Under the pieces are notes generated by a model, which saw only the letters and a list, made by a program, of their open reading frames with translations, was not told where the DNA came from and searched no databases. 64,000 nucleotides of DNA. It comes from Peptococcaceae bacterium CEB3. GTDB taxonomy: Bacteria > Bacillota > Desulfitobacteriia > Desulfitobacteriales > Desulfitobacteriaceae. Within the stretch, counting starts at the first letter, position 1, and each line of letters opens with the position of its first letter. Shown here piece by piece: positions 9,060-20,327 of the stretch. The stretch is taken from NCBI GenBank assembly GCA_001029295.1, contig LDXJ01000057.1, positions 62,001 to 126,000 of the forward strand, given 5' to 3'. Made by a program: the position numbers and the translations under genes.

Positions 9060-9364
<305 letters not shown>

Positions 9365-11645: not shown

Positions 11646-11780
11646 GCCTCAATTATCCTTTCGGGCTATTTGCCGAGCCACGGAGCGCATTGTTCGCCTT
11701 CACGCCTTGGCGGGGATGACGGGCAGGCCGACGGTGGTGGGGTATACGGAAAACGACATCAAGCTCTGGTCGGGGATTGA
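11646..11780 (+). pseudogene. 135-bp remnant of paaK
   Basis: The sequence matches paaK codons around its ATP loop (compare 15828-15960 and 19244-19376) at about 90% identity, without start or stop. It is followed at about 11790-11815 by a 26-bp piece found also inside the PaaK-like gene at 9836-9862. This is debris of recombination among ligase genes. Confidence 0.85.
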
Positions 11781-11885
11781 TCCTCATTCAGCCGGAAGGG
11801 ACGTCCGCAAGGGCACTGCTGAATGGGATAGAAACCTGGCTGAGCGAACTCGGGCCCGGGGGCCCGGCCCGCCCGACCGAACGAT

Positions 11886-12233
11886 TCACCAAATATAAGG
11901 TATAAGGCGGTAACGGACTGTCTCCGTGTATTTTGCGTAACCAGGCAGGCCATCCTTCAAGAGCCTTTCCTCGTCATGGATCATCCGGACCATGGCGGGA
12001 ATCATCAAGGCGAAGAGTATCAATCCCCACCATGAGCCGAGCGCCAGAGGTATGCCGAGGACCAGCACCAGGTCACCGACATAGCTGGGATGCCGTACAA
12101 CCGCATAAGGCCCGGTTGTCATAAAGATCAATACTCCAAGCGCGGCCGCGCCGAGAAAGAACTTCATAAATATCGAAAAGATGAGGCTCGTCATGCCCTT
12201 GCTTTTTGCCAGTGGTTTGGATCGTTGTTCCAT
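11886..12233 (-). CDS. Isoprenylcysteine carboxyl methyltransferase family protein, shortened
   Basis: 115 aa; the family (ICMT/PEMT-like membrane methyltransferases) is usually about 190-200 aa. The conserved C-terminal core is present: [16 protein letters not shown], then [13 protein letters not shown] and [10 protein letters not shown]. The N-terminal part keeps only one membrane helix, joined abruptly to GPYAVVRHP, so the segment between them looks deleted. Activity is doubtful. It is the third gene after tetR and the Rph-like gene, 45 bp downstream. Pieces of a longer version of its start recur at 16.4 and 22.2 kb. Confidence 0.75.
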
Positions 12234-12278: not shown

Positions 12279-14921
12279 CTACTCCAGGATCTCCACATAG
12301 CCTTTCGTTCCGTTGACCCGAATCCTCTGCCCGTCTTTAATGAGACTTGTCACGTTTTCCACGCTCACGACAGCGGGCAGACCGTACTCCCTGGCGACGA
12401 CCGCGCCGTGGGTCATCATTCCGCCGACCTCGGAAACCAGGCCTTTGATCGAAACGAACAGTGGCGTCCAGCTGGGATCCGTAAAGGCGGTGACCAGAAT
12501 GTCGCCCTCTTCAATTTGGGCCTCCTCCAGCTTCAAGATGATCCGCGCCCGTCCCTCGATAACGCCCGTGGAAACAGGGACCCCTATTAAAGCACCCTTC
12601 GGGATATCGCCAGTGTCGTACTCGCCGGTGATGATCTCGCCGTCGGAGGTCATGACGCGGGGCGGAGTCAATTTCTCAAAGATCTCGCAGTCCGCCTTCC
12701 GTCTCGTGATGATGTCGTAGTCCAGCTGGTTTGTGTCGCACACTTTTCGTAGCTCCTCATAGGTCAAATAGTAAATATCCTCCGGTTCCCGGATCAGGCC
12801 TTCCTGCACCAACCGCGCCGCTTCTTTCTTGAGGGCCTGTTTATAAACATAAAAGCGCTGCATCATTGCATACTTGGGGTATTCCCGGAAGCCGACGAAA
12901 TTGCGCATAACGCTGATCTTTTTCTTCGTCCTTTCCGCCTTTTTTCTGCCGCCGGGCAGCTTCTCGAGTCTGCCGATAAGTTCTTGCGCCCTTTGTTCTG
13001 CCTCCAGCCGCTTCTGCTCAAAGATTATCTCATGGGAGCCCGGCGCGAAATTCTTGATATCATTAAGAATCAGGGGGATCAGCATTGTCGGTTTTTCAGC
13101 CCAGCGGGGCCGCGTAATGTCAATCTCTCCTGGGCAGCGCGCCCCGTATTTTTTCAGATAATTGCCCATGGAATCGCCAACGGCTTTGCCGCCCTCAAGC
13201 TTTTCCAGATCCTTAAAAAAGGTCGCGTCGTCGGCATGCCGGAAATATTCAAGTACGGCCGGATACTGCCGGACGACGTCCGCCACATCCAGAAGCTCGA
13301 GCCCCATATTCGAGGTGACATTGTTGCTGAGCGACTGAGAAAGGATATTGGTGACGTCCTTTTCACCCAACCACTTTTTCAGGTGTCTTTTAAGCCAGCC
13401 TGAGGCAAGGATGCCAACAGTGGCCACGCCGTAGTTGTCTAAGACGATGGACTTGAAAGCCTCATCCATATCCCGCAGAATAAAGTCGATCAGGCCGGCT
13501 CCTGACTTGTCGCTGATCCTCTGCTCCATGTCCGGCACCAGCGCGTCCTGCCTCGCAATAATTTTCCGGATGAGCCCGGCGTCGTTTTCCCGGCTGATCT
13601 TTCTCGCCTGATTAAGTCCTGAGATCATATCTCCCATCGAGCCGCCGCTTAGGCCCAGCGTCGTCTTTCCCCGGGCCAGTGTCTTGATATAATCTTTTCT
13701 TTTCAGGACATTGATGAGGGCTTTTTGTATCAAAATATCAGCCGAACCGAGACCAGTTTTCACGAAAATCTTTGCTGCTATGGGCGAAGCCAGTTCATAA
13801 GAGACGTCCACATACATCCGCCCTCCGGCAGCGACCAGAGGATCGTTGGAAATCTTCTTGAGCCAAACCGGGAAAAAAGACAAGCCAAACGGCTTCATGA
13901 CATCAGTCATCATCTGCTGGTGAGCGAGTGACATATAGACATGATTTTTCCCGTCCTCCACGTCCGGCACCGGATACAAGGTAGTGATGGGGCGGCTTTG
14001 CACGACATAAAACTGACCGTCGTAAAGACACCATTCGATGTCCTGGGGGCGGCCGAAATACGCCTCGATCCTTCGGCCTGTTTTCTCAAGCTGCAGGACC
14101 TGCGCATCCGTCAGTGTCTGTACACTCTGTTTGTCGGGTTCCAGCAGCACTTGCCTGGTGCCGCCTTCTTTGATCCCATAAATGGCCAGTTTTTTCGTCG
14201 ATATCTTCTTGCTGACGATCTTGCCTTCCCGCACCTTATAAATGTCGGCGTCCACCAGGCCGGAAACAAGCGCTTCGCCGAGCCCGAAGCTGGCGTCGAC
14301 GGACAAAACTTTCCGGTTCGCCGTGATCGGGTCCGCCGTGAACATAATTCCCGCCGCCTCCGGGAATACCATCTTTTGGATGACAACCGACAGATGGACC
14401 TTGTTGTGGTCGAAGTTGTTCTGCAGGCGGTAGATGACTGCCCTGTCCGTGAAGAGCGAGGCCCAGCATTTGCTGATGTGCTTAAGGATGGCTTCCTTAC
14501 CGACGATGTTCAGATACGTGTCCTGTTGGCCGGCAAAGGAGGCCGTCGGCAGATCCTCCGCCGTGGCGCTGGACCGCACGGCATAGGCGTGTTGGTCTCC
14601 CAGCACCATCAGATAGCGTGTCACCGCCTCTTCAATTTCCTGTGCAATTGGTGTCTCTTCGATGGCGCCGCGGATTTTTCCGCTGATTTCGCTGATCTTT
14701 TCCCTGTCGTCCGCCTTTACATGTAAAAGCGGCTCCAGGAGGGCATGAAAGCCCGGCGTTTGTCCAATTGTCTTCTTGTAGGCTTCGGTCGTGACGCAGA
14801 AGCCCTCCGGTACTCTGATACCCTCAATCCGGGATAACTCACCGAGGTTGGCGCCTTTGCCGCCGACGACGGGCAGCTTTGTTTTGTCAATCTCAGGAAA
14901 ACCAAGCACATAAGTGTTCAT
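12279..14921 (-). CDS. Rph-like PEP-utilising phosphotransferase (rifampin phosphotransferase/PEP synthase family)
   Basis: 880 aa. N-terminal ATP-grasp domain (about 1-315) with VGGKGANLGELSRI, YAVRSSATAEDLPTASFAGQ and QKMV-type motifs; a long middle helical domain (about 320-760); and a C-terminal swivelling domain with [17 protein letters not shown] carrying the catalytic His, ending 40 residues later. The absence of the PEP-binding TIM barrel, the total length and the domain order match rifampin phosphotransferases rather than true PEP synthase. It would move the beta-phosphate of ATP to a small molecule; rifamycins are the known substrate, untested here. It follows its tetR by 45 bp. Confidence 0.85.
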   Translation of the reverse strand: MNTYVLGFPEIDKTKLPVVGGKGANLGELSRIEGIRVPEGFCVTTEAYKKTIGQTPGFHALLEPLLHVKADDREKISEISGKIRGAIEETPIAQEIEEAVTRYLMVLGDQHAYAVRSSATAEDLPTASFAGQQDTYLNIVGKEAILKHISKCWASLFTDRAVIYRLQNNFDHNKVHLSVVIQKMVFPEAAGIMFTADPITANRKVLSVDASFGLGEALVSGLVDADIYKVREGKIVSKKISTKKLAIYGIKEGGTRQVLLEPDKQSVQTLTDAQVLQLEKTGRRIEAYFGRPQDIEWCLYDGQFYVVQSRPITTLYPVPDVEDGKNHVYMSLAHQQMMTDVMKPFGLSFFPVWLKKISNDPLVAAGGRMYVDVSYELASPIAAKIFVKTGLGSADILIQKALINVLKRKDYIKTLARGKTTLGLSGGSMGDMISGLNQARKISRENDAGLIRKIIARQDALVPDMEQRISDKSGAGLIDFILRDMDEAFKSIVLDNYGVATVGILASGWLKRHLKKWLGEKDVTNILSQSLSNNVTSNMGLELLDVADVVRQYPAVLEYFRHADDATFFKDLEKLEGGKAVGDSMGNYLKKYGARCPGEIDITRPRWAEKPTMLIPLILNDIKNFAPGSHEIIFEQKRLEAEQRAQELIGRLEKLPGGRKKAERTKKKISVMRNFVGFREYPKYAMMQRFYVYKQALKKEAARLVQEGLIREPEDIYYLTYEELRKVCDTNQLDYDIITRRKADCEIFEKLTPPRVMTSDGEIITGEYDTGDIPKGALIGVPVSTGVIEGRARIILKLEEAQIEEGDILVTAFTDPSWTPLFVSIKGLVSEVGGMMTHGAVVAREYGLPAVVSVENVTSLIKDGQRIRVNGTKGYVEILE

Positions 14922-14966
14922 ACGAACACCCCCTAATTTTTTCTGCCAAAAACGGATTAACCCGGG

Positions 14967-15578
14967 CTAGACAAATTCTTCCTTGTACAGACTGTTTTTA
15001 AGCAATTCGAAGCAAGCATTCATGTCCTGGGCCAATACGTCATAATCAATGTCCGGCTGATGGGCCGACTGGGCGGCATACCCCTCACCGATCCAGTAAA
15101 TCATTTTCATGACAAGCGTTATATCAATATTGTCCTTGAACTTTGATGTATCTATCCCGTCAAAGGCAACCTTATTTCTTAAGCTGCCGCCTTTCGCCAA
15201 GATTGCCTCAATGTCCCCTTGGACATCCTTATCGCGTTCGAAATAGATGCTGGTCAGAAAAGAGAGGATTGCCGGGTGCTTTTTCATCAACGATATCTTT
15301 ACACCGGATATCATCTTCAGCCTGTCAAAGAAATCGTTTACCGCGCCCAGCTTTTCGTTGAATTCCGCTTCAAGCGTCGCGCCGCAAAACTCAATCAAAT
15401 AGAGATAGAGCGTCTTTTTTGAGCCAAAGTAGTGAAAGACCATCGCTTTGGAAATCCCCGCGGCACGAGCGATGTCGCTTGCGGAGGCTTTTTTATATCC
15501 GTTTGTGCCGAAGGCCGTCAAAGCCGCATCGATAATTTTGTTTTGTTTTTCTTTAGGCAAACTGAGAAATTTATCCAT
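14967..15578 (-). CDS. TetR family regulator of the Rph-like operon
   Basis: 203 aa. HTH at about 10-50: DAALTAFGTNGYKKASASDIA, then GISKAMVFHYFGSKK. Helical C-terminal domain of usual size. ATG at 15578 follows GAGGTGAT. It is the first gene of tetR-rph-ICMT on the minus strand. Two identical palindromes flank its promoter, so it should repress the whole operon until a ligand, perhaps the substrate of the phosphotransferase, binds. Confidence 0.88.
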   Translation of the reverse strand: MDKFLSLPKEKQNKIIDAALTAFGTNGYKKASASDIARAAGISKAMVFHYFGSKKTLYLYLIEFCGATLEAEFNEKLGAVNDFFDRLKMISGVKISLMKKHPAILSFLTSIYFERDKDVQGDIEAILAKGGSLRNKVAFDGIDTSKFKDNIDITLVMKMIYWIGEGYAAQSAHQPDIDYDVLAQDMNACFELLKNSLYKEEFV

Positions 15579-15600
15579 AAAATATCACCTCAACTGATGG

Positions 15601-15649
15601 ACCGATTCGGTTCATGATATCAATATAGCACTGAAAACCGATTCGGTCA
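15601..15649 (-). promoter_or_regulatory. Promoter with two identical TetR operators
   Basis: ACCGATTCGGT occurs at 15601-15611 and again at 15637-15647 (arms ACCGA/TCGGT). Between them on the minus strand is a promoter TTGACC-17 bp-TATATT, whose -35 overlaps the distal operator. The operator centres are 36 bp apart. Confidence 0.85.
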
Positions 15650-15774
15650 ATAGCATGATAAAAATGTGCGAGCGGTTTCTTGTCAAAGTCCGGCCTAAAA
15701 GTTATGCTGGGGCAAATGTGATCTGTACTAGATCAGAATAGGAATAGCGAGAATTGTTTTGAACAAAGGAGAGG

Positions 15775-16412
15775 ATGGGAGCGGATGATTTTCAACGTCT
15801 TCCTTTAACGAGTAAAGAGGATCTGCGCCTCAATTATCCCTTCGGGCTATTTGCCGAGCCGTCGGAGCGCATTGTTCGCCTTCATGCCTCGTCGGGGACG
15901 ACGGGCAAGCCGACGGTGGTGGGATACACGGAGAACGACATCAAGCTCTGGTCCGGGATCGTGGCTGAGTCCTTGGGACGGGTCGGGATCGGCAAAGGGG
16001 ACGTGATCCAGGTTGCCTACGGTTACGGCTTGTTTACAGGGGGGATGGGGCTGCACTACGGCTCGGAGAAACTGGGAGCCATGACCGTACCGATTTCCGG
16101 CGGCAATACCAGGCGTCAGCTGATGTTGATGCGGGACTTCGGCACGACTGTTCTGGCCTGTACGCCTTCCTATGCGCTCTACTTGGGCGAAAGCCTCGTG
16201 GAAGCGGGTATTTCGCGCAGCGAATTGCGTTTGAAAAAGGGAGTCTTGGGGGCGGAGCTCTGGACCGAGGGCATGAGGGAGGAAATCGAAGCCCGGCTGG
16301 GGATCGATGCTTATGATATTTACGGTCTGAGTGAAATCATGGGTCCCGGGGTGGCGATGGAATGCCCGTTGCACCGGGGTTTGCACGTGGATCAAGAGCC
16401 CAGTGCGATAGC
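15775..16412 (+). pseudogene. Internally deleted, 3'-truncated paaK copy
   Basis: From about 15690 the DNA repeats the promoter and leader of the intact paaK (18976-19070), then jumps from the start codon to codon 46 (126 bp deleted) and continues at about 98% identity to the middle of the gene (HRGLHVD). There it is cut and joined to an ICMT fragment. The open frame of 236 aa keeps the SSGTTGKP loop but lacks the C-terminal lid domain, so no activity is expected. Confidence 0.92.
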
Positions 16413-16487
16413 GCCAAGGAGGAATTTCATGAAGGAGGCGGTGCTTCGTCTGACATTTGATGTTTCCGCATCGACGAGGCATTGAGC
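16392..16487 (+). repeat. Duplicated junction fragment (ICMT start plus 50 bp), copy at 22224-22323
   Basis: About 95 bp are shared with 22224-22323. The first part, on the minus strand, encodes the beginning of an ICMT-like membrane helix (MKFLLG...); the second part ends in ATCGACGAGGCATTGAGC. At both places it joins a fragment of another duplicated gene. Confidence 0.8.
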
Positions 16488-19067: not shown

Positions 19068-20327
19068 ATGTCCAAGGATGAAGAATGGCTGTTGGCCGGT
19101 CTCCGAAAAACGGTAGAACGGGTTTTGCGCATTCCTTATTATCAAGAGAGTCTGGGGCGGGTAGGGATCAAGCAAGCGAGTGAGATCCGGACCCTGAAAG
19201 ATTTTCAACGTCTTCCTTTAACAAGTAAAGAGGATCTGCGCCTCAATTATCCGTTCGGGCTATTTGCCGAGCCGTCGGAGCGCATTGTTCGCCTTCATGC
19301 CTCGTCGGGGACGACGGGCAAGCCGACGGTGGTGGGGTACACGGAGAACGACATCAAGCTCTGGTCCGGGATCGTGGCTGAGTCCTTGGGACGGGCCGGG
19401 ATCGGCAAAGGGGACGTGATCCAAGTTGCCTACGGTTACGGCTTGTTTACAGGGGGGATGGGGCTGCACTACGGCTCGGAGAAACTGGGAGCCATGACCG
19501 TACCGATTTCCGGCGGCAACACCAGGCGTCAGCTGATGTTGATGCGGGACTTCGGCACGACTGTTCTGGCCTGTACGCCTTCCTATGCGCTCTACTTGGG
19601 CGAAAGCCTCGTGGAAGCGGGTATTTCGCGCAGCGAATTGAGGTTGAAAAAGGGAGTCTTGGGGGCGGAGCCCTGGACCGAGGGCATGAGGGAGGAAATC
19701 GAAGCCCGGTTGGGGATCGATGCTTATGATATTTACGGTCTGAGTGAAATCATGGGTCCCGGGGTGGCGATGGAATGCCCGTTGCACCGGGGTTTGCACG
19801 TGGATAGGCATTTTTATCCGGAGATCCTGGATGCGCGGGGGGAGCCGGTGCCCGAGGGCGTGTCGGGGGAACTGGTCTTTACGAGTATCGATAAGGAAGC
19901 TTTCCCGGTCCTGCGCTACCGGACCAAAGACTTGACGGCCCTGCATTACGGGGATTGCGGCTGCGGGCATACCGGCTGGACGATGGGGCGGGTTACGGCC
20001 CGAGTGGACGATATGCTGATCATCCGGGGAGTGAATGTGTTCCCGAGTCAGATAGAAGAGGGCCTTCTGGCCGTGGGCGGGTTGGAACCACACTACCTCC
20101 TGATCGTGGAGCGCACGGGCACACTCGACCAGTTGGAGGTTCAGGTCGAGGTCAACGCTGCCAACTTCATCGATGAAGTCCGCGAGCTGGAAGGTTTGCA
20201 AAAGCGCGTGCAGCAGCGGATCGAAGAAATCATCGGTATTTCGGTCAGGGTTCGTTTGGTCGAGCCCAAGAGTATCCCTCGCAGTGAAGGAAAAGCCAAA
20301 AGGGTCGTTGACAAGCGCAAGGGTTAA
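19068..20327 (+). CDS. paaK: Phenylacetate-CoA ligase
   Basis: 419 aa, near full family length. ATP loop HASSGTTGKP (77-86), central YGLSEIMGPGVAMEC (about 221-235), RYRTKDLT and the C-terminal lid with GRVTARVDDMLIIRGVNVFPSQIE. It makes aryl-CoA from arylacetates (phenylacetate, indoleacetate) with ATP. In anaerobes it often works with indolepyruvate ferredoxin oxidoreductase in aromatic amino acid use. An ACT-domain gene follows, a frequent partner. ATG at 19068 after GGAGAGG. A deleted copy and a remnant of this gene lie upstream at 15.8 and 11.6 kb. Confidence 0.93.
   Translation: MSKDEEWLLAGLRKTVERVLRIPYYQESLGRVGIKQASEIRTLKDFQRLPLTSKEDLRLNYPFGLFAEPSERIVRLHASSGTTGKPTVVGYTENDIKLWSGIVAESLGRAGIGKGDVIQVAYGYGLFTGGMGLHYGSEKLGAMTVPISGGNTRRQLMLMRDFGTTVLACTPSYALYLGESLVEAGISRSELRLKKGVLGAEPWTEGMREEIEARLGIDAYDIYGLSEIMGPGVAMECPLHRGLHVDRHFYPEILDARGEPVPEGVSGELVFTSIDKEAFPVLRYRTKDLTALHYGDCGCGHTGWTMGRVTARVDDMLIIRGVNVFPSQIEEGLLAVGGLEPHYLLIVERTGTLDQLEVQVEVNAANFIDEVRELEGLQKRVQQRIEEIIGISVRVRLVEPKSIPRSEGKAKRVVDKRKG

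Follow-up and report, generated by a model that had tools for sequence, protein, structure and literature searches.

An RPH-like dikinase gene with a remodelled substrate domain, its own TetR gene and two candidate operators in Peptococcaceae bacterium CEB3

Introduction

The closest described enzyme to the one reported here is LmRPH, the rifampin phosphotransferase (RPH) of Listeria monocytogenes (PDB 5fbs/5fbt/5hv1), with which our Rph has domain order, catalytic residues and predicted fold in common, and from which it differs by a diverged substrate domain, insertions and deletions at the rifampin (RIF) pocket, and the presence of a TetR gene with candidate operators. RphT (Pps) of Bacillus subtilis has the same fold and presumed mechanism (PMC13099321) and, like our Rph, is of the Firmicute type without a rifamycin-associated element (RAE); however, RphT is induced through convergent promoters (PMC12802891), and its B. 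velezensis orthologue falls in a clade without TetR. Also described are YvkC, the B. subtilis flavonoid phosphate synthetase, which is homologous to RPH and uses phenolics as substrates (PMC13099321, PMC11124408), and the phenol kinases HpeHI, PpsAB and CreHI, which use a phospho-His dikinase mechanism with ATP-grasp and swivel domains, as in our Rph, but consist of two polypeptides and have little substrate-domain identity to it (PMC12167813).

The locus lies in a stretch of 64,000 nucleotides of Peptococcaceae bacterium CEB3 (hereafter the window), to which all coordinates refer. An earlier note on this DNA had proposed an inducible operon for an Rph-like phosphotransferase and raised the possibility of an inducer and substrate other than a rifamycin; the word "antibiotic" in the label it gave the operon is an inferred one.

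Results

An RPH-like dikinase outside the validated clade

The two genes, tetR and rph, lie on the same strand (-) with tetR first and 45 bp between them, and a scan of this interval found no terminator-like sites. The features of the region are as follows.

9061-9205, minus strand: copy of the rph 3' end (145 bp, 95%), the remnant of a second rph
11681-11803 and 15787-16485: partial copies of paaK (phenylacetate-CoA ligase), either side of the operon
11886-12233, minus strand: C-terminal remnant of a PEMT/ICMT-type methyltransferase gene, 45 bp after rph
12279-14921, minus strand: rph, RPH-type dikinase gene (880 aa; open reading frame and Pfam), with ATP-grasp domain at residues 1-315, substrate-binding domain at about 327-770 and C-terminal swivel His domain at 803-874
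12408-12410, minus strand: codon of catalytic His838 (LmRPH His825), from alignment and sequence
13854-13865, minus strand: codons of WLKK, a clade-specific four-residue insertion, from alignment to LmRPH
14967-15578, minus strand: tetR, TetR-family repressor gene (203 aa; Pfam TetR_N, 4.6e-14), first in the operon
15586-15591, minus strand: tetR ribosome-binding site GAGGTG, read from the sequence
15601-15611: candidate operator O1, ACCGATTCGGT, perfect palindrome just downstream of the -10 box
15622-15650, minus strand: promoter TTGACC-17-TATATT with extended -10 TG (promoter scan, 10/12 matches)
15637-15647: candidate operator O2, ACCGATTCGGT, perfect palindrome overlapping the -35 box
19068-20327: intact paaK

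Pfam places PPDK_N at residues 18-315 of Rph and the PEP-utilizers swivel domain at 803-874, at the C-terminus, and found no PEP-binding barrel in the 880-aa protein. With its RIF-BD-type middle domain, Rph thus has the architecture of an RPH, as the earlier note had read it from the sequence, and both Pfam and the alignment to LmRPH agree. That note's claim that the enzyme is not a PEP synthase likewise holds: PEP synthase was rejected since the swivel domain is C-terminal rather than central and the TIGR01418 score is 394.8 against a cut-off of 739.75. A two-component phenol kinase was also set aside, the ATP-grasp and swivel domains being encoded in a single open reading frame. Over a full-length alignment, Rph is 54% identical to LmRPH (1041 bits), and it passes the NCBI cut-off for NF041857 RIF_Ptrans_rph (1247.6 vs 999). 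All of the catalytic residues are present (K22, R117, T136, E297, Q336, Q337, T523, R666, E667, K670 and H825 in LmRPH numbering); both half-reactions in LmRPH depend on such residues (PMC4844700), so a two-step swivelling phospho-His mechanism may be assumed. The predicted structure, of modest confidence (14 sequences, pLDDT 61), matched 5hv2 with Z 28.9 and 7.7 A over 555 residues, which we take as confirmation of the fold only.

Two trees were built, of 56 and 31 rows. For the validated RPH types they draw on LmRPH itself and on near relatives of the Bacillus and Streptomyces enzymes; neither YvkC nor several of the other validated RPHs is among the rows. LmRPH, the Bacillus RphT-type enzymes, Streptomyces rph, most copies from related genomes and a copy on contig C9 of the CEB3 genome form one clade (support 100/99), no member of which has a TetR gene beside rph. 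The window Rph falls outside this validated clade in both trees (support 100/99; 100), in a clade of its own with support of 100/100; the wider group around it, supported at only 91/67, consists almost entirely of genes preceded by a TetR gene, those of Propionispora and BRH_c8a being without one. CEB3 has a separate, canonical RPH without TetR, on a contig (C9) of only 5 kb. A canonical-clade RPH was also seen on a conjugative plasmid of the cyanobacterium Aulosira laxa (L056 3001-5619), beside ParB and a gene with a deaminase-reductase domain. By alignment and phylogeny, then, the window Rph is RPH-like and outside the validated clade.

The divergence of Rph is concentrated in the substrate domain. 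Relative to canonical RPHs, its ATP-grasp domain stands at 65.5%, against 65.9% among canonical RPHs, and shows no excess divergence, whereas its substrate domain stands at 47.1% against 64.6%; in comparison with LmRPH alone, the substrate domain is 44% identical and the ATP-grasp domain 63%. The ratio of substrate-domain to ATP-grasp divergence is 1.79 between the window clade and canonical RPHs, 1.08 within canonical RPHs and 0.97-1.08 between the Streptomyces and Listeria enzymes. Inside the window clade it is 1.14, a normal value, which indicates that the substrate domain is under ordinary constraint. Insertions and deletions fixed in the clade occur at LmRPH positions 353, 386, 427, 474 and 480-481, all within the substrate domain, and several adjoin the rifampin contacts 354, 387 and 478/479; the WLKK insertion maps to the LmRPH loop in which the rifampin ring is cradled. 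Of 18 class-specific sites, the substrate domain has 14 and the ATP-grasp domain none. We would like to note that the alignment of rifamycin contacts, which the earlier note had proposed as a check, points both ways: identity to LmRPH at the 12 rifampin contacts is 40% on the window side and 61% in the canonical clade, with both insertions and deletions, but Q336, Q337, V368, L387 and M673 persist in Rph. The Y351F substitution is neutral in LmRPH (PMC4844700). As far as sequence comparison goes, the pattern fits a different substrate that has become fixed, or another ansamycin.

A candidate double operator that travels with the repressor

O1 and O2 are spaced 36 bp apart and flank the tetR promoter. 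The whole 5.3 Mb genome contains ACCGATTCGGT three times, and we estimate from motif length alone that about 2.5 copies per genome would occur by chance; because of this expectation a single copy has no meaning, whereas two within 36 bp at a promoter are meaningful. The third copy was rejected as an additional TetR target, as it lies inside an rpiR-type coding sequence. The positions of the promoter's -35 and -10 boxes are retained in orthologous operons.

In a scan of named genomes, relatives of Rph with 71-81% identity were found in Desulfocucumis, Anaerosolibacter, Alicyclobacillus, Anaerocolumna, Ca. Formimonas, a Clostridiales MAG and a Chloroflexi MAG. Six of these organisms, which belong to several families, have a TetR gene orthologous to that of the window (56-70%) directly upstream of rph and in the same direction; the exception is the Chloroflexi MAG, where the TetR upstream of rph is of another kind. 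In all six carriers the -35 box coincides with ACCGAATCGGT or the mirror of this motif, and a second site, with at most two mismatches, follows 33-36 bp on. When G024 and G007, related genomes that have a similar pair, are counted in, all eight share TTGACCGAATCGGT or the mirror of it at the -35 box, again with a second site of at most two mismatches 33-36 bp on. The DNA flanking these conserved operator-like sites differs between carriers. The sister Rphs on contig C60 of the CEB3 genome and in the second Formimonas copy have an unrelated TetR and a different palindrome, GACC..GGTC, and the window operator motif was not found at either. That motif and repressor travel together is strong evidence, if of a comparative kind, that the palindromes are the operators of this TetR, and the occurrence of the pair with its double site in six other organisms is what we would call a phylogenetic footprint of the putative operators. 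The earlier note's proposal of an own TetR with two operators around the promoter is borne out to this extent, both by the two perfect palindromes and by their conservation with TetR in relatives.

The TetR itself has the features expected of a putative autorepressor, namely TetR_N, an all-helical ligand domain and a palindromic candidate operator at its own promoter. The best match of its predicted model was TM1030 (Z 16.2, 189 residues, 4.6 A), and its structure neighbours TM1030, FadR, DarR and KstR2 did not pinpoint a ligand.

The earlier note had also set the operon apart from rph genes with an RAE. The 19-bp RAE palindrome was not found in the window with up to three mismatches allowed, and the rest of the genome gave two weak sites, fewer than a reversed-pattern control, so RAE control of the operon was rejected; as a control, a 19-bp RAE-type palindrome does stand upstream of a Streptomyces rph. 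The contrast that the earlier note drew carries no weight, however: since the RAE is an actinomycete feature (PMC12802891, PMC10719064), its absence is to be expected of a Firmicute-type rph and says little on its own.

Neighbouring genes and flanking DNA

Downstream of rph, an MFS exporter gene is present in Anaerosolibacter (Pfam) and in the Clostridiales MAG, and ABC-type genes are present in Formimonas, a call made from reading the sequence. Apart from such varying neighbours (MFS, ABC-type or unrelated), the orthologous operons share no catabolic genes. In B. subtilis, yvkC is presumably adjoined by the TetR gene yvkB and the MFS gene yvkA. A phage collection yielded no Rph copies beyond Listeria-type ones and distant homologues.

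The PEMT-like open reading frame after rph in the window was considered as a working third gene of the operon and rejected, only the C-terminal part being left; no PEMT homologue was found after rph in the named relatives. The last 78 aa of this remnant are 49% identical to the PEMT that follows the orthologous TetR in two related genomes, where the same TetR and operator-like promoter precede a PEMT-type methyltransferase gene with no rph adjacent, and where this gene is degraded in one of the two. At locus L136 3081-5909 (G033:C157), where a TetR orthologue has a promoter of the operator-like kind and the PEMT gene is degraded, a 943-aa DUF6603 protein is encoded downstream of the TetR orthologue.

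The rph remnant downstream of the operon covers the last 51 aa of Rph at 88%. A 133-bp piece of paaK is present on both sides of the operon with 91% identity, and the operon hence lies between direct repeats, an arrangement that, judging from these copies, suggests duplication or insertion by recombination.

Dikinases and TetR genes across the genome

Across the CEB3 genome, 11 of the 16 loci with a swivel domain lie no more than 4 kb from a TetR gene, compared with 0.044 expected per locus from the 29 TetR genes in the genome (p = 4e-12), although the 11 include the short rph remnant and slightly fewer are therefore independent. Conversely, 12 of the 29 TetR genes are near a dikinase. In related genomes, the TetR-adjacent fraction of swivel loci was 0/7, 3/5, 1/4, 1/3, 3/8 and 3/8. 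The association in CEB3 indicates that its dikinases form an expanded set, regulated individually, to which the window operon belongs.

Several other members of this genome were seen. Contig C38 (L010 757-1439) carries a paralogous TetR-Rph pair in which the TetR gene is split by a frameshift, owing to which this rph may be constitutive. Contig C64 (L124 4348-11222) carries a split dikinase, with separate ATP-grasp and swivel proteins, and a divergently oriented single-chain dikinase, each with its own TetR gene between them. Three more distant dikinases of the RPH fold (775-878 aa), each adjacent to a TetR gene, are on contigs C35, C22 and C57 (L121, L122 and L123), and none of the three exceeded a curated NCBIfam cut-off.

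Discussion

We consider it probable, with moderate confidence, that the window contains an autoregulated, inducible operon for phosphorylation-based detoxification, and that its inducer and substrate would be a hydroxylated compound other than rifampin. Bound to the two palindromes, over the -35 box and the transcription start, a TetR homodimer would block its own promoter until released by a small hydroxylated compound, probably a hydrophobic one, whereupon tetR-rph would be transcribed. In the enzyme, the ATP-grasp domain would then bind ATP, with the beta-phosphate taken by His838 on the swivel domain; this domain would move to the substrate domain, where Arg679, Glu680 and Lys683 may help the phosphate onto a hydroxyl group, yielding an inactive phospho-compound, AMP and Pi. 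We infer the repression and induction, the co-transcription of tetR and rph, and the identity of substrate and inducer; the natural substrate would by the same token be a hydroxylated natural product or a phenolic other than rifampin.

The most serious alternative is that Rph is a true rifamycin phosphotransferase, with a TetR that senses rifamycins and an altered pocket that merely shifts ansamycin preference. We regard this as unlikely, though far from negligible. It gains from the NF041857 score, from an identity to LmRPH that exceeds the figure of 42% for clade A, the validated one, in Stogios et al. (PMC4844700), and from the prediction by the same authors of RIF activity for homologues in Peptococcaceae and Clostridiaceae (PMC4844700); the rifampin contacts that Rph keeps, and the variation of these contacts within the canonical clade too, also count against a different substrate. 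Yet Rph lies outside the validated clade, its substrate domain is selectively altered with indels at the RIF pocket, and the genome already has a canonical RPH on contig C9. The earlier note's suggestion that inducer and substrate may be a different compound gains independent support from these same three points.

A catabolic phenol kinase that starts aromatic breakdown, like HpeHI, PpsAB or the flavonoid phosphate synthetase YvkC, appears quite improbable to us. Homologous dikinases do phosphorylate phenols and flavonoids (PMC12167813, PMC13099321, PMC11124408), and the genome has both a split dikinase beside a CoA ligase (L125) and the intact paaK of the window, but Rph is a single chain and far nearer to RPH than are the split kinases, whose identity with RPH is about 20% (PMC12167813). 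Moreover, no catabolic genes are common to the orthologous operons, and the paaK pieces around this one are truncated copies. That rifampin-sensing convergent promoters, as upstream of B. subtilis helD and pps, and not TetR, govern the operon is hardly credible. Genes for TetR regulators do belong to those most often encountered behind such promoters (PMC12802891), and one weak opposing promoter-like match is present at 15554-15583(+); this match, however, has only 9/12 positions, shuffled sequence gives such matches too, and its -10 TAAAAT is not retained in orthologues, whereas the operators are.

Beyond the operon for inducible detoxification that we favor here, we put forward a broader reading more tentatively, as one that falls somewhat short of probable: RPH-fold dikinases may constitute a modular detoxification arsenal, in which gene copies with a remodelled substrate domain, provided with a TetR and an operator of their own, would each answer to a different hydroxylated compound, and the window operon would be one module, spread between distant bacteria, for a so far undescribed class of substrate. 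Automatic annotation widely labels RPH homologues as rifampin resistance genes or PEP synthases, and, given the clade's own repressor and changed substrate domain, the RPH annotation may be wrong for the whole of it. The repressors offer handles here: a compound that releases each TetR would point to the substrate of the paired kinase, which makes the substrate question of a large dikinase superfamily directly testable.
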